A stretch of DNA of 49,899 nucleotides from a virus (IMGVR_UViG_3300043466_003310:1-49899), one strand, 5' to 3'; positions 38,823 to 46,163 are shown, numbered from the stretch's first letter. Made by a program: numbers and translations. The notes: generated by a model not told the origin, from the sequence alone.

Positions 38823-38831
38823 CTATTTATA
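38823..38831 (+). promoter_or_regulatory. CTATTTATA motif of HEG leader 1
   Basis: Exact motif at the head of the first structured leader, 103 nt before ATG 38935. Confidence 0.55.
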
Positions 38832-38839
38832 TTAAAGAA

Positions 38840-38927
38840 GAGTACTGCAACTACTTAAAAAAAATATTACGGAGATTTTAGAAGAACACCTTGTTGCAGA
38901 GGGCTTATTCTAATTTCTCCTTTTTTT
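38840..38927 (+). ncRNA. kissing-loop leader RNA, copy 1
   Basis: Hairpin 1 is GAGTA/TACTT (38840-38844, 38852-38856) with loop CTGCAAC (38845-38851). Hairpin 2 is CCTT/AGGG (38889-38892, 38900-38903) with loop GTTGCAG (38893-38899), a perfect complement of loop 1. Hairpin 2 sits inside an outer stem: GGAGA 38871-38875 with TCTCC 38916-38920, and TTAGAA 38878-38883 with TTCTAA 38908-38913. T-run 38921-38927; the ATG comes seven bases later. Confidence 0.85.
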
Positions 38928-38934
38928 ATTTAAT

Positions 38935-39669
38935 ATGGTAGGAATTTATAAAATTACAAGTCCAAGTGGAAAAGTTTATATAGGGCAAAGTGTTGATTTG
39001 GAAAGAAGAAAATGTGAGTACTTATCACCAAGTAACAGTAAAAGTCAACGAAAGCTTCACAACTCAATAGTGAAATACGGTTTCTCTACTCATATCTTCG
39101 AGATAGTGGAAGAATGTGCTATCAAGGAATTGAACACCCGAGAGAGACACTGGCAGGATTTTTACAATGTACTAGAGGAAGGACTAAACTGCAGACTAAC
39201 AACTACATTAGATCGGTCAGGAAAGGTATCAAAGGAAACTGATAGAAAAAGATCGGAAAAGAAGAAAAAACCGGTACTACAGTATTCGTTACAAGGTATT
39301 TTAATTAAGGAATGGAGCTCAATTAAAGAAGCAGGTCAAGCACTAGGTATACAGACAGGTAACATACCAGCATGCTGTAAAGAGAAAAAATTCTCAGTAG
39401 GAAAGTTTATTTGGAGATATAAAGCAAATACCGTAGAGCAAACAATAGAAGTAGGTAATAAAACACAGACATCCAGTAAAGTAGGTAGAATGTGGTCAGG
39501 AAGAAGTAAAAAACCTGTACTACAGTATACAAAAGAAGGTACTTTTGTTAAAGAGTGGAAATCAATAGTAGAAGCAGCAAAAAATTCAGCAATTAGAGAA
39601 ACAGGTATAATAAATTGCTGTAAATACAGAATCAAAACATCAGGAGGGTTTATTTGGATATATAAATAA
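38935..39669 (+). CDS. GIY-YIG homing endonuclease with two NUMOD-type repeats
   Basis: 244 residues. GIY at 3-5, YIG at 15-17 (VGIYKITSPSGKVYIGQSVD), the Arg pair after it, and TRERHWQDFYNV with the catalytic Glu define the nuclease. Two C-terminal DNA-binding repeats begin KKPVLQYSLQGILIKEWSSI and KKPVLQYTKEGTFVKEWKSI, each ending in a Cys-Cys plus FIW.YK element (NUMOD1-like). It lies directly upstream of the polymerase gene and carries leader RNA copy 1 at its 5' side. It is probably mobile, cutting alleles without the insertion. Confidence 0.88.
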   Translation: MVGIYKITSPSGKVYIGQSVDLERRKCEYLSPSNSKSQRKLHNSIVKYGFSTHIFEIVEECAIKELNTRERHWQDFYNVLEEGLNCRLTTTLDRSGKVSKETDRKRSEKKKKPVLQYSLQGILIKEWSSIKEAGQALGIQTGNIPACCKEKKFSVGKFIWRYKANTVEQTIEVGNKTQTSSKVGRMWSGRSKKPVLQYTKEGTFVKEWKSIVEAAKNSAIRETGIINCCKYRIKTSGGFIWIYK

Positions 39670-39703
39670 AATTTACTATATTATATAAAATTAGTTATAG
39701 TAA

Positions 39704-41029
39704 ATGTTCTATATAGTAGAATCAGATCAGCAATTAGATATACTTAAAGGTTATAGTGAAAAAGGAGCATACATAAAAGTAATCTCCTCAAACGATAACT
39801 ATCACCCTCTTCTTACAAAAACCATAGCAGTTTATCTACGACCATTAAATCATGAGGAAGGATATATTATTCCTATAAATCACGATGAAGGACTTAATGT
39901 AGATAAAAACCGTATCTACGACATTTTAAAGCAATACAAAACACTTTATACCATAGATAAGAAAGAGTTGCTGTATCACTTTATATTGAAGGATGTTATA
40001 GATATATCCCTACTGTACTCAATGACAAACTACGATAGGTTGGAGTTAGGTAGGAATAACTCAACTTATAACTGGTTCTATAGTAGATTGCATGACTTCA
40101 AAGAAGTAAATGCTTTGATTCCAATTTCAAAGTTATATGAAAAATGCGAAGAAGATTACCAAGCAGTATATTCCATATTGCAATATGCAATACCAAACGG
40201 ATTTGATTTCTACAACAAAACAGCAACATCTGTATTTTTTGCAATAGAGCACACAGGACTAAGAACAATTCATCAGCCATATATAGATTTATTCAAACCA
40301 AATAATCCTATATTCAATATGCAAGATAATATTGCATATACTTCGTATAACCTATATAATACAACCTCTCGTCCAACAAATGCTTTTAACTCAGTTAACT
40401 ATGCTGCAATACCAAAAGCACCTGAATTCAGAAAAGCAATCATACCTCAGAACGATTACTTTGTAGCATACGATTATGACGGTTATCATCTTAGGCTATT
40501 ATGTGAACAAATAGGGTATAACTTAACAAACGAATCAGCACATGCGCAATTGGCTAGACTTTATTTTGGTAAAGATGAAATAGCTGAAGAAGATTATGCA
40601 AAAGCAAAACAAATTAACTTTCATGCAATTTATGGAAAGATTCCGCCTGAGTATGCTTTCCTAGAGGTTTTTGAAAAGATGGAAAGGTACACATCATTGC
40701 TGTGGAAGCAATTTAAAGAACAGGGATATGTACAGGATCCAATATCAGGTAAGAGGTTTACACAAGAACTGCCAGAAATGCATCCACAGAAGTTACTAAA
40801 CTACCTTATGCAAAGTTTAGAGACAAGTAGAAATATTTTAATACTAAAAGAATTAATAAAGTACCTAGCAGGAAAGAAAACTAGAATAGCTCTGTATGTG
40901 TACGATGCAATAATATTTGACTTTAGCAAAGAGGATGGAAAAGAAACGTTGGAAGAAATTGAAAGAATAATGGAATCGGAAGGAAGGTATCCGACAAAGG
41001 TAGAGTATGGAAAATCGTTAAATTTTTAA
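39704..41029 (+). CDS. divergent short family A DNA polymerase
   Basis: 441 residues. The C-terminal half has Pol I motifs: SRPTNAFNSVNYAAIP (222-237), motif A D257-YDGYHLR, motif B K302-QINFHAIYG with F306 and Y310, and motif C Y400-D401-A402. Both metal-binding Asp positions are kept, but Pol I E710 is His262, R754 is Tyr298 and the HDE triad is YDA. The N-terminal 200 residues look like a worn 3'-5' exonuclease domain (SKL, IDISLLY) without a clear DxE motif. T4 uses a family B polymerase, so this is either the replicase of an unusual lineage or an accessory enzyme. Homing endonuclease genes flank it on both sides. Confidence 0.8.
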   Translation: MFYIVESDQQLDILKGYSEKGAYIKVISSNDNYHPLLTKTIAVYLRPLNHEEGYIIPINHDEGLNVDKNRIYDILKQYKTLYTIDKKELLYHFILKDVIDISLLYSMTNYDRLELGRNNSTYNWFYSRLHDFKEVNALIPISKLYEKCEEDYQAVYSILQYAIPNGFDFYNKTATSVFFAIEHTGLRTIHQPYIDLFKPNNPIFNMQDNIAYTSYNLYNTTSRPTNAFNSVNYAAIPKAPEFRKAIIPQNDYFVAYDYDGYHLRLLCEQIGYNLTNESAHAQLARLYFGKDEIAEEDYAKAKQINFHAIYGKIPPEYAFLEVFEKMERYTSLLWKQFKEQGYVQDPISGKRFTQELPEMHPQKLLNYLMQSLETSRNILILKELIKYLAGKKTRIALYVYDAIIFDFSKEDGKETLEEIERIMESEGRYPTKVEYGKSLNF

Positions 41030-41048
41030 CGGTTTGGGAAAAAACTTG

Positions 41049-41057
41049 CTATTTATA
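41049..41057 (+). promoter_or_regulatory. CTATTTATA motif of HEG leader 2
   Basis: Exact motif, 20 nt after the polymerase stop, at the head of leader copy 2. Confidence 0.55.
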
Positions 41058-41067
41058 TTAAATAGAA

Positions 41068-41153
41068 GGTACTGGTCCTACCGATAAAAGCATTACGGAG
41101 ATTTTAAAAAGACACTACGGACCAGGTAGTTATTTTTAATTTCTCCTTTTTTT
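41068..41153 (+). ncRNA. kissing-loop leader RNA, copy 2
   Basis: Hairpin 1 is GGTA/TACC (41068-41071, 41079-41082) with loop CTGGTCC (41072-41078). Hairpin 2 is CTAC/GTAG (41115-41118, 41126-41129) with loop GGACCAG (41119-41125), a perfect complement. The outer stem pairs GGAGA 41097-41101 with TCTCC 41142-41146, and TTAAAA with TTTTAA. Seven T at 41147-41153; ATG at 41161. Confidence 0.88.
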
Positions 41154-41160
41154 ATTTAAT

Positions 41161-41787
41161 ATGAATTACCAAAAAATCTATAATCAAATAATTGATCGAG
41201 CAAAGGATAGAGAATTAAACTGTTATAAAGAAAACCATCATATTATTCCAAGGTGTATGGGTGGAACTAATATTAAGGACAACTTGGTAGCATTAACTGC
41301 AAGAGAGCACTTTATATCCCATTGGCTGCTAACCAGAATACATCCGGAAAATAAAAAACTGGTACGGGCCTTTTGGGGAATGTGCAATCAAAAAAATAAA
41401 GGTAGAGACTATAGAGTTGGTAGTAAAGCCTATGAAGAGTCCAAGACAGCATTTTCTAAAATCCAATCAGAAAAAATGTTAGGAAGTAATAATCCTCAAT
41501 ATAACAAGATACCATGGAATAAAGGAATACCAGCATCAGAGAGTTCAAATAAAAAGAGATCACAAGCACTATCAGGTGAGAATCATTTTATGTTCGGAAA
41601 ACACCATACGGAGGATACTATACAGAAACTTAAACGTCCAAAAACACAGGAGCATATAGAAGCAATGAAAGGACCTCGAAAACCTTACGGACCTCAAGTA
41701 AAAGTAATTTGCCCCCACTGTAACAAGCAAGGAGGCAATTCTATGAGAAGATGGCATTTTGAAAATTGTAAAAACATAGAGTTGTAA
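41161..41787 (+). CDS. HNH homing endonuclease with C-terminal zinc finger
   Basis: 208 residues. YQKIYNQIIDRAKDRELNCY, then ENHHIIPRCMGGTNIKDNLV and ALTAREHFISHWLLTRIHPE give the HNH core (about 20-65). A NUMOD3-like region follows (ENHFMFGKHHTEDTIQKLKR). The end is ICPHCNKQGGNSMRRWHFEN with a final Cys, a CxxC...H..C zinc finger shared with the GIY-YIG enzymes at 42713 and 45513. The gene is paralogous to the HNH gene at 28312 in its core but carries different DNA-binding parts. Confidence 0.88.
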   Translation: MNYQKIYNQIIDRAKDRELNCYKENHHIIPRCMGGTNIKDNLVALTAREHFISHWLLTRIHPENKKLVRAFWGMCNQKNKGRDYRVGSKAYEESKTAFSKIQSEKMLGSNNPQYNKIPWNKGIPASESSNKKRSQALSGENHFMFGKHHTEDTIQKLKRPKTQEHIEAMKGPRKPYGPQVKVICPHCNKQGGNSMRRWHFENCKNIEL

Positions 41788-41809
41788 AATAAGAATATTT
41801 TTCGTATAT

Positions 41810-41828
41810 TAAATAAAAGTAGGTTAGT
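41810..41828 (+). promoter_or_regulatory. TTTCGTATATT motif
   Basis: TTTCGTATATTAAATAAAA, the second recurrent upstream motif, ending 21 nt before ATG 41850. A TATTTATA copy at 41841-41848 abuts that ATG and could not serve it as a normal promoter. Confidence 0.4.
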
Positions 41829-41849
41829 AAAAAAAAGTTATATTTATAC

Positions 41850-42305
41850 ATGATACAAGAAGCATTAGAACTAAGAAAATTCGATTACGACATTGAATAC
41901 GATTACAACCTACTAACCATGTCAAATAAACTATTTTGTACTTTCTCTTCAGAACAACAACTAGACGAGATTTTAAGTACAATACAAAACAAATACGAGA
42001 TCATTTATAACAAGATTTTTGTTCTTTATTCAAAGAGCCAAGATGAGTATATCTGTACATATAACGTAGAATTTGGAAACGTATCCAATTTCTTAGATAA
42101 TACAATCCTTGTGCACCGCAAAAAGGAGAGTAATTCTCTATATACAATCAATTCACTTAACAGATTGATTGAGTCCTTAAACGGAGGAGTCCTAGATGTA
42201 ACCTATAAGATAAACTGGATGGATTATCAAAATTGTATACTACTAACAAAAGGAAACGAACTAAGACGAATTAACACTAAACTTTTTCGTATTATAGAAT
42301 TATAA
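41850..42305 (+). CDS. conserved phage protein of unknown function
   Basis: 151 residues. FDYDIEYDYNLLTMSNKLFC, then a central helix, and NTILVHRKKESNSLYTINSL with NRLIESLNGG and ILLTKGNELRRINTKLFRII. The VHRKKESN.LYTINALN-like motif is one I associate with an uncharacterised protein in T4-like phages, near replication genes. No function is known to me. The start is uncertain because a TATTTATA motif ends one base before the ATG. Confidence 0.6.
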   Translation: MIQEALELRKFDYDIEYDYNLLTMSNKLFCTFSSEQQLDEILSTIQNKYEIIYNKIFVLYSKSQDEYICTYNVEFGNVSNFLDNTILVHRKKESNSLYTINSLNRLIESLNGGVLDVTYKINWMDYQNCILLTKGNELRRINTKLFRIIEL

Positions 42306-42309
42306 GTAA

Positions 42310-42588
42310 ATGGAATCATTTGATATAGCAAAATGGAAGAAGAACTTCCTAAATAAAAATATACAAGAGAAGTACCAAGTAGTATTTCACGACTATGGTG
42401 GAGATGATGTTCCTTATACTGAGCAGTTTTTTAATAGTGAAAGTGATGCTGAGGATTTTGTAATAGCTAATGAGTGGGAAGAGGATGTACAGGATTGGGA
42501 AGGAAATTACAGCACAAGAACTCGATACTATAATCCACAACAAAATGAATCAGAATTTGGGTATCATATAGAAAAAGTGGCGGTTTAG
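42310..42588 (+). CDS. small unknown protein with FDIAKWKKNFL N-terminus
   Basis: 92 residues, acidic and rich in Tyr, Asp and Glu (VVFHDYGGDDVPYTEQFFNS; AEDFVIANEWEEDVQDWEGN). The N-terminal FDIAKWKKNFLNK echoes FDIHNWQAKFLKE at 9915. The family is not recognised. Its last codons (CGGTTTAGG) lie at the left edge of the DNA shared with leader copy 2. Confidence 0.6.
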   Translation: MESFDIAKWKKNFLNKNIQEKYQVVFHDYGGDDVPYTEQFFNSESDAEDFVIANEWEEDVQDWEGNYSTRTRYYNPQQNESEFGYHIEKVAV

Positions 42589-42599
42589 GAAAAAAGTTG

Positions 42600-42608
42600 C
42601 TATTTATA
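42600..42608 (+). promoter_or_regulatory. CTATTTATA motif of HEG leader 3
   Basis: Exact motif at the head of leader copy 3, 104 nt before ATG 42713. Confidence 0.55.
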
Positions 42609-42619
42609 CTAAATAAGAA

Positions 42620-42705
42620 GGTACTCGTCCTACCGATAAAAACATTATGGAGATTTTAGAATGACACTACGGACGAGGTAGTTATTTCTAATTTCTCCTT
42701 TTTTT
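42620..42705 (+). ncRNA. kissing-loop leader RNA, copy 3
   Basis: Hairpin 1 is GGTA/TACC (42620-42623, 42631-42634) with loop CTCGTCC (42624-42630). Hairpin 2 is CTAC/GTAG with loop GGACGAG (42671-42677), a perfect complement. Relative to copy 2, one base changed in each loop (G to C and C to G), keeping the pair. The outer stem pairs GGAGA 42649-42653 with TCTCC 42694-42698, and TTAGAA with TTCTAA. Seven T at 42699-42705; ATG at 42713. Confidence 0.88.
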
Positions 42706-42712
42706 ATTTAAT

Positions 42713-43402
42713 ATGATAGGAATTTATAAAATAACAAATCCAAAAGGGAAAATTTACATAGGACAGAGTACAAATATACAAAATAGATTTAAGCAGTACA
42801 AAAGTCCACATTTTAAAAAACAGTATAAGCTTTTTTATTCAATAGAAAAATATGGTTATAATTCACATGTATTTGAAGTATTAGAAGAATGTGCTGAAAG
42901 TGTATTGAATATACGAGAAAGGTACTGGCAAGATTTCTATAATGTACTACAAGAGGGGTTGAATTTACACTTAACAAAAACAGAGAGTAAACCAGCAAAG
43001 CATTCAGAAGAAACTAAGCAAAAAATTAAAGAAAGCTTAATTGGTAGAATAATGACAGACGAACATAAAAAACGTCTATCAATAGCTAGAATGGCACTAC
43101 CTGAAGAAATTAGGAAAGCAGCAGGTCAGCATAAAAAAGGTTATAAAGAATCTACAGAGTCTAATAAGAAGAGATCGGAAAAGCTACTAGGAGCAGTCAG
43201 ATCGGAAGAGACTAGGAATAAGATGAAAAAACCTAAGTCAAAGTCTCACAGTGAAAATATCTCAAAGGCAAAAAAGGGCTTAGAGAGTTTAATTAAAGGA
43301 CGATTAGATCAAATAATAACCTGCCCCTACTGTAAAAAAGAAGGAGGAAATTCAGGAATGAAACGATGGCATTTTGAAAAATGTTCAAAAAGAGAGTTGT
43401 AA
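42713..43402 (+). CDS. GIY-YIG homing endonuclease with NUMOD3-like repeats and zinc finger
   Basis: 229 residues. IGIYKITNPKGKIYIGQSTN has the GIY and YIG motifs; IRERYWQDFYNV has the catalytic Glu. NUMOD3-like repeats follow (HSEETKQKIKESLIGRIMTD; SEETRNKMKKPKSKSHSENI). It ends TCPYCKKEGGNSGMKRWHFE with a final Cys, the zinc finger shared with the HNH gene at 41161. It sits just before the gp32-type gene and carries leader copy 3. Confidence 0.88.
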   Translation: MIGIYKITNPKGKIYIGQSTNIQNRFKQYKSPHFKKQYKLFYSIEKYGYNSHVFEVLEECAESVLNIRERYWQDFYNVLQEGLNLHLTKTESKPAKHSEETKQKIKESLIGRIMTDEHKKRLSIARMALPEEIRKAAGQHKKGYKESTESNKKRSEKLLGAVRSEETRNKMKKPKSKSHSENISKAKKGLESLIKGRLDQIITCPYCKKEGGNSGMKRWHFEKCSKREL

Positions 43403-43414
43403 AATCGAAAAAGG

Positions 43415-43431
43415 TTTCGTATATTATAATA
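43415..43431 (+). promoter_or_regulatory. TTTCGTATATT motif
   Basis: TTTCGTATATTATAATA, 35-51 nt before ATG 43466 of the gp32-type gene. The sequence around it resembles the one after the HNH gene at 41787. Confidence 0.4.
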
Positions 43432-43465
43432 AAGTAAAATAAAGTTAAATTAAAAAAAAGTTATT

Positions 43466-44317
43466 ATGGATTTGAATGCAATTAAAAATAAGCTAGCAGC
43501 TTTAAACAGTGGTGGAAACCAGGACAGAGAAAAAGTAGACTTCGACAAGATCTACTGGAGACCGGCAAACGGTAAAAGTACCATACGTATTGTTCCTTCA
43601 GCATTTAATGCTGCAGATCCTTTCACAGAAATCAAATTACACTATAATATAGGAAAGTTCCCTATGGTATCTCTTTCTAATTATGGTAAACAAGATCCAA
43701 TCGAAGAGTTTGTAAAAGAATTAAGAAAGACTTCTGATAAGGACAACTGGTCATTATCTGGAAAATTATCTCCTAAATCTAGATTCTTTGCTCCTGTTAT
43801 TGTAAGAGGAGAAGAAGACAAAGGAGTTCGTCTTTGGTCATTCGGTATTAACATCTATAAAGCATTATTGGCTTTAGCAGAGGATGAAGATATTGGAGAC
43901 TTTACAGATGTAATGAATGGATGGGATATGGTTGTTGAAACCACACCAGCAGCAGGACCAGGTCAATTCCCAACTACTACAGTTCGTATTAAACCTAAAC
44001 AAACTCCATTATCAGACGATAACACCCAGGTTGATTTATGGTTAAAAGAACAACCAAATGCTTTAGAAGTACAAACTCAGTACGACTATGAGTTTATCAA
44101 AAAGAAATTACAAGAGTACTTAAACCCAGGAGAGGAAGTAACATCTCCAGCTCCAGTAGCAGCAGAATCAATCGCACCAGTTGCACCAGCACCAGTACAG
44201 GCAGAAGAAACTGACTTGGATAGAGCTTTAGGAAGCAATAAGACAGATTTCACTCTAGAGAATGCAACAGCAGGAAATAAGAGTACAGTTTCTAAATTTG
44301 ACGATTTATTCAACTAA
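43466..44317 (+). CDS. 32: single-stranded DNA-binding protein (gp32-type)
   Basis: 283 residues. It coats ssDNA in replication and recombination and helps load UvsX and gp41. LNAIKNKLAALNSGG at the start is the cooperativity region; IYWRPANGKSTIRIVP begins the OB fold. Central elements SPKSRFFAPVIVRGEEDKGV and RLWSFGINIYKALLALAED match the family. The end is an acidic domain finishing SKFDDLFN, typical of gp32 and the site of protein contacts. The protein contains no Cys, so the structural zinc site of T4 gp32 (His/Cys3) is missing. It is followed three bases later by uvsX. Confidence 0.92.
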   Translation: MDLNAIKNKLAALNSGGNQDREKVDFDKIYWRPANGKSTIRIVPSAFNAADPFTEIKLHYNIGKFPMVSLSNYGKQDPIEEFVKELRKTSDKDNWSLSGKLSPKSRFFAPVIVRGEEDKGVRLWSFGINIYKALLALAEDEDIGDFTDVMNGWDMVVETTPAAGPGQFPTTTVRIKPKQTPLSDDNTQVDLWLKEQPNALEVQTQYDYEFIKKKLQEYLNPGEEVTSPAPVAAESIAPVAPAPVQAEETDLDRALGSNKTDFTLENATAGNKSTVSKFDDLFN

Positions 44318-44319
44318 GA

Positions 44320-45393
44320 ATGGCAGCTAAAAAAGAAACAGCAAAAACCGCTAGCGAAATAATCAAAGGCGGTTTTAGTTTGAGCAACTTTAAAAAGAAT
44401 AAAGGATTTAGCTCTCAATCTGTAAAGTTTAAAAGCCAAGACTGGATTCCAGTTTCAAAAGCCTTCCAAGACATCGTCTCTTTACCAGGTATTCCAACAG
44501 GGCATATCACCTTACTAAGAGGGCATTCTGATACAGGAAAGACAACGCTTTTATTAGAAGCTGCTGTCTCTGCACAGAAAAGAGGTATACTACCAGTCTT
44601 TATTATTACTGAGATGAAATGGTCATGGCCACATGCTCAGACAATGGGGTTAGAAGTAGAAGAAGTGATCGATGAAGAGACAGGAGAGATTACTGACTAT
44701 CAAGGATTTTTCTTATATGCTGATAGAGGTAGTTTAAATACTATTGAAGATGTAGCAGCGTATATTTTAGATCTAATCGATGAACAAAAGAAAGGAAATC
44801 TTCCTTATGATTTATGCTTCTTCTGGGATTCAGTAGGATCCGTTCCATGTGAAATGTCTGTTAAATCCAACAAAAACAACAATGAATGGGCAGCTGGTGC
44901 AATGTCTACACAATTTGGAAATAATGTAAATCAGAGGATAATGTTATCCAGAAAAGAGGGGAGTAAGTACACAAACACTTTAGTAGCTATCAACAAAGTG
45001 TGGACTGCTAAACCAGAACACATAATGGGGCAACCTCGATTAGAAAATAAAGGGGGAAAGGCAATGTGGTACGATGCTACTGTTATTATAACCTTTGGAA
45101 ACATTACAAATTCCGGTACTTCCAAAATCAAAGCAATTGCTAAAGGGAAAGAGTATGAATTTGCAAAAAAGACAAAAGTCCAAATTGAAAAAAATCACAT
45201 AAATGGAATCCAATCAAGAGGACCTATCGTGATGACACAGCATGGATTTATAGCAGATGACAAGAAGGAGATTGATACATATAAAGATGCACATAAGCAC
45301 GAATGGGCCCACACCCTAGGATCAAACGAATTCTCAGTAGTAGTTGAAGCAGATATGGAGGAAGATCCGCTAAATAGAGAGATTATTGATTAA
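44320..45393 (+). CDS. uvsX: UvsX recombinase (RecA-like)
   Basis: 357 residues. The strand-exchange enzyme for recombination-dependent replication and repair. Walker A is GHSDTGKT (68-75); ITEMKWSWPHAQTMG follows, and LCFFWDSVGSVPCE holds the Walker B region. NNNEWAAGAMSTQFGNNVNQ, LVAINKVWTAKPEHIMGQPR and GGKAMWYDATVIITFG are RecA-core segments. It lies directly after the gp32-type gene, its functional partner, and is probably co-transcribed. A GIY-YIG gene follows. Confidence 0.94.
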   Translation: MAAKKETAKTASEIIKGGFSLSNFKKNKGFSSQSVKFKSQDWIPVSKAFQDIVSLPGIPTGHITLLRGHSDTGKTTLLLEAAVSAQKRGILPVFIITEMKWSWPHAQTMGLEVEEVIDEETGEITDYQGFFLYADRGSLNTIEDVAAYILDLIDEQKKGNLPYDLCFFWDSVGSVPCEMSVKSNKNNNEWAAGAMSTQFGNNVNQRIMLSRKEGSKYTNTLVAINKVWTAKPEHIMGQPRLENKGGKAMWYDATVIITFGNITNSGTSKIKAIAKGKEYEFAKKTKVQIEKNHINGIQSRGPIVMTQHGFIADDKKEIDTYKDAHKHEWAHTLGSNEFSVVVEADMEEDPLNREIID

Positions 45394-45409
45394 TTTATAG
45401 AAAAGTTGA

Positions 45410-45418
45410 CTATTTATG
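45410..45418 (+). promoter_or_regulatory. CTATTTATG motif of HEG leader 4
   Basis: One-base variant of CTATTTATA, 16 nt after the uvsX stop, at the head of leader copy 4. Confidence 0.45.
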
Positions 45419-45420
45419 TA

Positions 45421-45509
45421 TGTAGTGTCGGAGCTACAAATGTAAATAAAATATCAACTAAAGCTATAGGCAAGTAGAGACTCCGACCTCGAAAGCCATA
45501 GCTTTTTTT
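45421..45509 (+). ncRNA. kissing-loop leader RNA, copy 4 (diverged)
   Basis: Hairpin 1 is TGTAG/CTACA (45421-45425, 45434-45438) with an 8-nt loop containing GTCGGAG (45427-45433). Hairpin 2 is GAG/CTC (45477-45479, 45488-45490) with loop ACTCCGAC; CTCCGAC (45481-45487) is a perfect complement. The outer stem pairs AAAGCTAT 45460-45467 with ATAGCTTT 45498-45505, and GGC with GCC, with one bulge. T-run to 45509; ATG at 45513. The primary sequence is unlike copies 1-3 but the layout is the same. Confidence 0.8.
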
Positions 45510-45512
45510 ATT

Positions 45513-46163
45513 ATGACAGGAATATATAAAATAACAAATCCTAATGGAAAGATTTACATTGGGCAAAGCGTTTGCATCGAAAGAAGAAAGGTTATTTATA
45601 AAAACGAAAAATGCAAACGACAACCTAAAGTGTACAATTCCATAAAGAAATATGGATTCTCCCAACACATTTTTGAAATTATAGAAGAATGTACAGTTCA
45701 AGAACTAAATAAAAGAGAGAGGTATTGGCAAGACTTCTACGAAGTATTAGGAGAAAACGGATTGAACCTCAGCTTAACAAACTCAAACGATAAGTCAGGA
45801 CACATATCAGAAGAAGTTAAAAAAGTAATCTCAGAAAAGCTAACAGGAAGAGAACGCTCTCAAGAACATTGTAACAATATTGGAAAAGCTAAAAAAGGAA
45901 AAGAGAGTTGGTGGAAAGGGCACATACGGACAGAAGAACACCAGAAGAACTTAACTGAATCACTAAAGGGAAAGTCCTCCTGGAGTAAAGGAAAAACAGG
46001 ATGCTACTCAGAAGAAACGTACAAGAAGTGGTCTGAGAATAAGCAGGGAGATAAAAATCCAATGTACGGAAAGAAGCAGAAAGAAATTGAATGTCCGCAT
46101 TGTAAAAAAGTAGGAGGAGTCAATGTAATGAAACGTTGGCATTTTCAAAATTGTAAGAAATAG
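45513..46163 (+). CDS. GIY-YIG homing endonuclease with zinc finger
   Basis: 216 residues. TGIYKITNPNGKIYIGQSVC and KRERYWQDFYEV give the nuclease motifs. NUMOD3-like repeats follow (HISEEVKKVISEKLTGRERS; RTEEHQKNLTESLKGKSSWS), and the end is CPHCKKVGGVNVMKRWHFQN with a final Cys. It lies between uvsX and the FEN/RNase H gene, starting 120 nt after the uvsX stop. It is a paralogue of the enzyme at 42713. The next gene starts seven bases after its stop and may be transcribed with it. Confidence 0.88.
   Translation: MTGIYKITNPNGKIYIGQSVCIERRKVIYKNEKCKRQPKVYNSIKKYGFSQHIFEIIEECTVQELNKRERYWQDFYEVLGENGLNLSLTNSNDKSGHISEEVKKVISEKLTGRERSQEHCNNIGKAKKGKESWWKGHIRTEEHQKNLTESLKGKSSWSKGKTGCYSEETYKKWSENKQGDKNPMYGKKQKEIECPHCKKVGGVNVMKRWHFQNCKK

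Follow-up and report, generated by a model that had tools for sequence, protein, structure and literature searches.

What is the RNA structure that recurs directly upstream of four homing endonuclease genes (HEGs) in the viral record IMGVR_UViG_3300043466_003310, and what does it do for these genes? We analysed the whole stretch of 49,899 nucleotides (nt) of this 49.9-kb IMG/VR virus record, hereafter the window, with an approach that was comparative and sequence-based throughout. An earlier note on this DNA had proposed a leader RNA in which the loops of two hairpins pair with one another. We identified a structured RNA that appears to be undescribed, is strongly supported by comparison of relatives and is common to several HEG families of Bacteroidetes-type phages. 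It is relevant to the question of how free-standing homing endonucleases keep down the burden that they place on the phage, which has been studied mainly in T4, and offers a natural example of a loop-loop tertiary contact coupled to a terminator.

In each leader a promoter box comes first, then hairpin 1 and an A-rich spacer; a terminator-type hairpin with hairpin 2 inside it follows, and a U-run leads to the ATG of the HEG. All four copies were found where the earlier note had placed them, and in each the loop of hairpin 1 was fully complementary to that of hairpin 2. The loop 7-mers, CTGCAAC/GTTGCAG, CTGGTCC/GGACCAG, CTCGTCC/GGACGAG and GTCGGAG/CTCCGAC, are perfect complements located in the loops of predicted hairpins. 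RNA folding recovered both hairpins and the outer stem in copies 1-3 and the same layout in copy 4, and the folds of the four copies were more stable than those of shuffled sequences (z -2.5 to -3.8). There is one leader unit per HEG, with no tandem RNA repeats. The elements are as follows.

38823..38831, + strand: phage promoter-like box CTATTTATA of copy 1, from motif count and position before ATGs
38840..38856, + strand: copy 1 hairpin 1, GAGTA[CTGCAAC]TACTT, loop 38845-38851
38871..38920, + strand: copy 1 terminator-type outer stem, GGAGA-TT-TTAGAA / TTCTAA-TT-TCTCC, around hairpin 2
Loop 38893-38899, + strand: copy 1 hairpin 2, CCTT[GTTGCAG]AGGG, with U7 at 38921-38927
41049..41057, + strand: phage promoter-like box of copy 2, from motif count
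41068..41082, + strand: copy 2 hairpin 1, GGTA[CTGGTCC]TACC, loop 41072-41078
41097..41146, + strand: copy 2 outer stem and hairpin 2, ACTAC[GGACCAG]GTAGT, loop 41119-41125, with U7 at 41147-41153
42600..42608, + strand: phage promoter-like box of copy 3, from motif count
42620..42634, + strand: copy 3 hairpin 1, GGTA[CTCGTCC]TACC, loop 42624-42630
42649..42698, + strand: copy 3 outer stem and hairpin 2, ACTAC[GGACGAG]GTAGT, loop 42671-42677, with U7 at 42699-42705
45410..45418, + strand: phage promoter-like box CTATTTATG of copy 4, from motif count
45422..45437, + strand: copy 4 (second leader family) hairpin 1, GTAG[TGTCGGAG]CTAC, loop 45426-45433
45460..45505, + strand: copy 4 outer stem, AAAGCTAT-A-GGC / GCC-ATAGCTTT, with an AAGTA/GAAA internal loop
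Within 45460..45505, + strand: copy 4 hairpin 2, GAG[ACTCCGAC]CTC, with the T run at 45503-45509

The earlier note had counted four independently preserved pairings. Copies 1-3 belong to one leader family (type 1) and copy 4 to another (type 4), and the window alone therefore holds fewer than four independent events; the independent support came from relatives in other viral contigs. A gapped DNA pattern for type-1 leaders retrieved 36 stretches with 34 different sequences, and 30 sequences made up the type-1 alignment (A2). Type 4 was found in 23 stretches (alignment A3, 23 sequences), and a third family, located before HNH-NUMOD4 genes, contributed 12 sequences. In type 1, 98.1% of kissing-helix cells were paired and five of seven pairs had changed on both sides, with one position occurring as UA 16, AU 7, GC 4 and CG 1 times; the rare unpaired cells came from two rows with 6-nt loops that had been shifted by MAFFT. 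In type 4, 96.9% of cells were paired and all seven pairs had changed on both sides. Whole-structure covariation was 0.332 in type 1 compared with 0.118 in shuffled alignments, 0.346 compared with 0.107 in type 4 (no more than 0.079 in slid controls for both), and 0.387 compared with 0.166 in the third family, whose alignment was rougher. Nulls were dinucleotide-type shuffles, as reversal preserves pairing and reversed sequence was unsuitable. The three families, which are unrelated in sequence, thus each exceeded both shuffles and slid controls, as expected of a structured RNA with a loop-loop helix and a terminator-like outer stem. A strand test comparing G-U with A-C cells gave a weak difference (22 versus 14, with 12 A-C cells at two terminal pairs).

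Further families (L046, L048, L069, L072, L076, L079, L080 and L103) showed the same layout with other sequences. The kissing helix was 6-8 base pairs (bp) long and loop lengths co-varied, 6-nt loops occurring with 6-nt loops. At least 40 different loop words were present among the leaders, and no target sequence was conserved in the loops. Three leaders upstream of HEGs had just 6 bp of loop-loop complementarity (L444, identified by script, and L475 and L478, identified by eye). Two unpaired features were also conserved and may matter. Type 1 and the NUMOD4 group have a spacer resembling AAAACATTA, and type 4 (window 45472-45494), L069, L072 and L477 have an AGUA/GAA internal loop between the outer stem and hairpin 2 that resembles a loop-E (bulged-G) motif.

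The earlier note had named two outcomes that would speak against the RNA, a lack of covariation in homologues and a match to a known family. Covariation was found, and Rfam returned no match at gathering score, HEARO included, with only chance-level matches at E<=10. Literature searches found no description of this RNA. We therefore regard the leader as a candidate new RNA class within the known kind of leader RNAs with a terminator, in agreement with the earlier claim that no described class has this layout.

We asked how closely the leader is associated with HEGs. A kissing leader was defined by a U-run no more than 32 nt from the ATG, an outer stem, and two loops sharing at least seven complementary bases; 71 marked regions preceded HEGs recognised by regular expression, and two HEGs missed by the expression were added by eye. 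Such a leader (at least 7 bp) preceded 73 of 229 HEGs and 1 of 2,699 other open reading frames (ORFs), giving a Fisher P of ~1e-84 that overstates independence, as many contigs are related. The loci were mostly gathered via HEGs, and the other ORFs were their neighbours together with those of whole records (~0.93 Mb) and the window; in these whole records and the window, true copies again lay before HEGs. Shuffling the hairpin-1 part gave 1.2% positives. A match before a non-HEG ORF in L085 has a U-run that does not abut the stem, and a non-HEG match in L159 looks like chance. Leader partners were GIY-YIG proteins, HNH proteins with NUMOD3 or NUMOD1, HNH proteins with NUMOD4, an MKKC-type protein with an HNH-like motif and no Pfam match, and DUF723/DUF4379 proteins. 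The last, found behind type-4 leaders (L305:72-1010 and L405:559-1497), carries KYDYS and CPIHG motifs; we take it to resemble Vsr-like/EDxHD homing enzymes, and it is probably a Vsr-like homing endonuclease. One 102-kb record (G015) contained at least eight kissing leaders in a single phage, all with different loop words.

Judged from its genes, the window represents part of the genome of a T4-like phage that is kin of Flavobacterium phage immuto. Its replication genes (polA, gp32-like, RecA-like and 5'-3' exonuclease) have counterparts in immuto, the recombinases share 82% protein identity, and the immuto record lists T4-type Gp20 and Gp23. The four window HEGs lie between or before replication genes in the same transcription direction. 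Their identity as HEGs, proposed earlier, was borne out by Pfam matches to GIY-YIG, NUMOD1 and NUMOD3, supplemented for two of them by other evidence as listed.

38935..39669, + strand: HEG, GIY-YIG and NUMOD1 (Pfam)
41161..41787, + strand: HEG, HNH-type MNYQKI protein with NUMOD3 as its sole Pfam match and an HHIIP HNH-type motif
42713..43402, + strand: HEG, GIY-YIG (Pfam)
45513..46163, + strand: HEG, Pfam NUMOD3, aligning with GIY-YIG proteins (47% identity to the 42713 protein)

Comparison of insertion sites indicated that the leader travels with its HEG. At sites S2 (polA/next gene) and S4 (recombinase/exonuclease), the flanks are joined directly in many relatives, including immuto, while other relatives carry an insert of ~740-805 bp, the size of a leader plus HEG. 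The leader enters together with the HEG, and empty sites have no leader. At S2, type-1 leaders precede an HNH gene in the window (41030-41787) and a GIY-YIG gene in L017; at S4, type-4 leaders precede a GIY-YIG gene in the window (45394-46163) and an HNH gene in L017. The occurrence of different HEG families at the same site behind the same leader type indicates that leader and HEG body are partly modular, and HEG bodies appear to have been swapped behind the leader between phages. In L035 (near 7851) and L037 (near 9076), the final codons of a lost HEG, and after them the gp32 gene, come directly behind an intact leader, consistent with deletion of the HEG and retention of the leader. A DNA-level element (a homing target or recombination site) or chance palindromes might account for repetition near HEGs and for same-type leaders with different HEGs at one site, as if recombined at the leader, but this explanation is disfavoured to the point of being hardly credible given the strong covariation in the stems and kissing helix, the fixed orientation to promoter, U-run and ATG, and the absence from empty sites.

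The earlier note had included the CTATTTATR box in the recurring architecture. This box is present before the copies, but it is a promoter-like phage motif separate from the RNA: the window holds 13, all on the + strand, compared with 3.3 expected, and nine of the 13 (CTATTTATA) lie 14-34 nt before the ATGs of other phage genes (at 1836, 4696, 14860, 16935, 27711, 28278, 30128, 32756 and 38350). From its position, CTATTTATA is a likely phage promoter element. At the window HEGs the leader sits between box and ATG, and in 69 of the 74 detected leaders a box immediately preceded hairpin 1 and with it the leader as a whole. The phage box was -2 to +11 nt before hairpin 1 in 53 of the 74, and in 16 the Bacteroidetes -7 box TAnnTTTG ended 1-7 nt (mode 5) before it. 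As the -7 element is numbered T-12 to G-5 (PMC6847099), this spacing suggests that hairpin 1 begins at approximately +1 to +3, the 5' end of the RNA. At the other end, a stem followed by a U-run, after a promoter and before an ORF, has the form of an intrinsic terminator. Promoter and U-run would frame an RNA of roughly 80-90 nt, in line with the 85-90 nt suggested earlier. The distance from the end of the outer stem to the ATG was 7-18 nt in the 74 detected leaders, which leaves no space for a further promoter, and the leader's own promoter would thus reach the ORF solely by terminator read-through. The start codon lies outside the outer stem, the sequence between stem and ATG is U/A-rich, and no Shine-Dalgarno (SD) sequence is sequestered. 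Bacteroidetes naturally lack SD sequences, and folded RNA close to the start codon reduces initiation in F. johnsoniae (PMC6847099).

How might such a leader act? The reading that we favour, to which we give about an even chance, is that it is a portable cis-regulatory attenuator RNA of phage HEGs. Transcription would start at or just before hairpin 1, which would fold first; the loop of hairpin 2 would then pair with that of hairpin 1 to form a kissing helix of 6-8 bp, setting the attenuator fold. The outer stem would close over hairpin 2 as an intrinsic terminator, with the U-run ending a few nt before the ATG, and most transcripts would end there, as compact RNAs roughly 80-90 nt long. HEG production would depend on rare or conditional read-through alone, and the SD-less start codon would have strong structure immediately 5' of it. 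The leader would probably thereby serve as a built-in brake that holds HEGs almost silent. While the fold, covariation, HEG association, promoter and U-run positions and joint insertion were established computationally, we infer from them termination, its efficiency and low HEG expression. The presence of the same leader type before unrelated nucleases favours action in cis on expression. Attenuation, the best supported reading, fits both this sharing and the need of HEGs for low expression (PMC2988022).

Several observations weigh against attenuation. Many related HEGs have no leader. A plain terminator scan misses the leader hairpins, since their loops exceed its limit. No alternative antiterminator was found in minimum free energy and centroid folds of the window copies. 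The earlier note had suggested that loop-loop pairing might stabilise the outer stem or compete with it; the two helices use different bases and share no nucleotides, so that no simple mutually exclusive switch is visible in the sequence. A plain terminator needs neither hairpin 1 nor a kissing helix, and simple attenuation therefore leaves the core conserved feature unexplained. This strictly kept helix may steer termination, provide a scaffold to which a protein or the polymerase binds, or belong to a terminated RNA that acts in trans. A more specific proposal, which we consider rather improbable, is a new RNA class in which a co-transcriptional kissing fold controls the terminator and which serves as a plug-in for unrelated nucleases, with a loop code particular to each copy permitting the terminated RNA to feed back on its own leader alone.

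The terminated RNA could also be the main product, a stable trans-acting phage small RNA (sRNA) riding with HEGs. It could act on its own nascent leader through the same loops, in a self-antisense manner comparable to plasmid copy control; it might also regulate further RNAs of phage or host, or bind the nuclease. We regard this explanation as possible though doubtful. A hairpin at the very 5' end, a kissing fold and a terminator tail, framed by promoter and U-run, are features of a stable sRNA. The loop words of same-type copies within one genome also differed (0 of 20 pairs identical), and such dispersal would favour action in trans, but it was not significant (permutation P = 0.16). In the pieces read there was no convincing HEG-free copy except the deletion remnant in L035/L037, the loops hold no conserved target sequence, and several nuclease folds are served, unlike an inhibitor specific to one protein.

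The leader might instead be a structured insulator, with the terminator shielding the HEG from upstream transcription, the kissing fold protecting the mRNA 5' end or setting start-codon context, and termination being unregulated. HEG cassettes do lie between essential replication genes of like orientation, and the leader arrives with the HEG. However, in 69 of 74 leaders the terminator is located between the HEG and its own promoter and would stop the HEG's own transcript too, and we consider this explanation unlikely. Antitermination RNA offers a further parallel: the put sites of phage HK022 are structured RNAs at the transcript 5' end, as is the leader by prediction, and the A-rich spacer is conserved in several families. 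A put-like leader, whose kissing fold would bind RNA polymerase and let it pass this and later terminators, is nevertheless very improbable, as no conserved sequence is common to all families and the second hairpin is itself a terminator.

Having set attenuation against these rivals, we compared the leader with known systems. In ColE1 RNAI/RNAII, two hairpins with loops of ~7 nt pair through the whole loop. The leader shares this whole-loop complementarity, but ColE1 pairs in trans whereas the leader carries both hairpins on a single molecule. HEARO, the omega RNA of IscB, is likewise structured and lies immediately before an HNH-type nuclease gene; the leader differs in its ~80-90 nt, the U-run after it, the lack of an Rfam match, and its GIY-YIG, HNH and DUF723-type HEG partners in place of IscB. 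Riboswitch and leader-peptide attenuators are also 5' leaders ending in a terminator directly before an ORF, but no ligand-binding core, leader peptide or competing antiterminator was seen here, and the loops vary freely. In T4, RNA hairpins occur at I-TevI, I-TevII, I-TevIII, segB and mobE, with intrinsic terminators in mobE/segF, and RNA structure by the HEG start codon is similarly thought to restrain expression (PMC2988022). The T4 hairpins sequester the SD and are escaped by late promoters giving transcripts without the hairpin, while here the SD is not involved and the box precedes the entire leader in 69 of 74 cases; the mobE/segF terminators are inside the ORF, while here the structure, with its kissing helix, is between promoter and ATG. 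Type III toxin-antitoxin systems (ToxIN) also combine a promoter, a pseudoknotted RNA, an intrinsic terminator and a nuclease gene, with the terminator setting the RNA:protein ratio (PMC5772629). However, ToxI is a tandem array of 36-nt H-type pseudoknots and ToxN an endoribonuclease, whereas here a single kissing-loop unit precedes DNA endonucleases of several folds (Pfam GIY-YIG, HNH_3, NUMOD, DUF723). The leader thus resembles T4 HEG control, type III toxin-antitoxin systems and kissing antisense RNAs in separate features, and lacks defining features of the first two.

The distribution of the leader includes cultured Flavobacterium phages (mumin, hattifnatt and sniff), and it is testable now. 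In hattifnatt9-1 and mumin6-1 a perfect copy precedes an annotated endonuclease (TACATTTG-TATTA-GTAG[AGTCGTCG]CTAC ... CAAAG[ACGACGACC]TTTTG ... GGTGGTTTTT ... ATG), which is absent from the text of the paper describing these phages. In the crAss-like records examined, HEGs begin 1-76 nt downstream of the preceding gene, too close for a leader of such length. Searches of bacterial genomes had low sensitivity: among 399 Flavobacteriaceae genomes, protein searches for two HEGs gave no match, and neither did a covariance model search, which scored just ~10 candidates per genome and was hence uninformative; two bacterial-genome pattern matches were rejected as coding-type chance matches without structure. 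BLAST identified 34 Flavobacterium phage records with the hattifnatt/mumin leader stretch. In Flavobacterium phage FL-1 (L202 1380-1500), a promoter-like TATCTTTG and a terminator-like hairpin with no kissing pair by eye precede a GIY-YIG gene, an arrangement that is possibly a simpler form of the leader. Upstream of the gp32 gene in L230 (1500-1610, minus strand), a phage box with no clear kissing pair is possibly a decayed type-1 leader.

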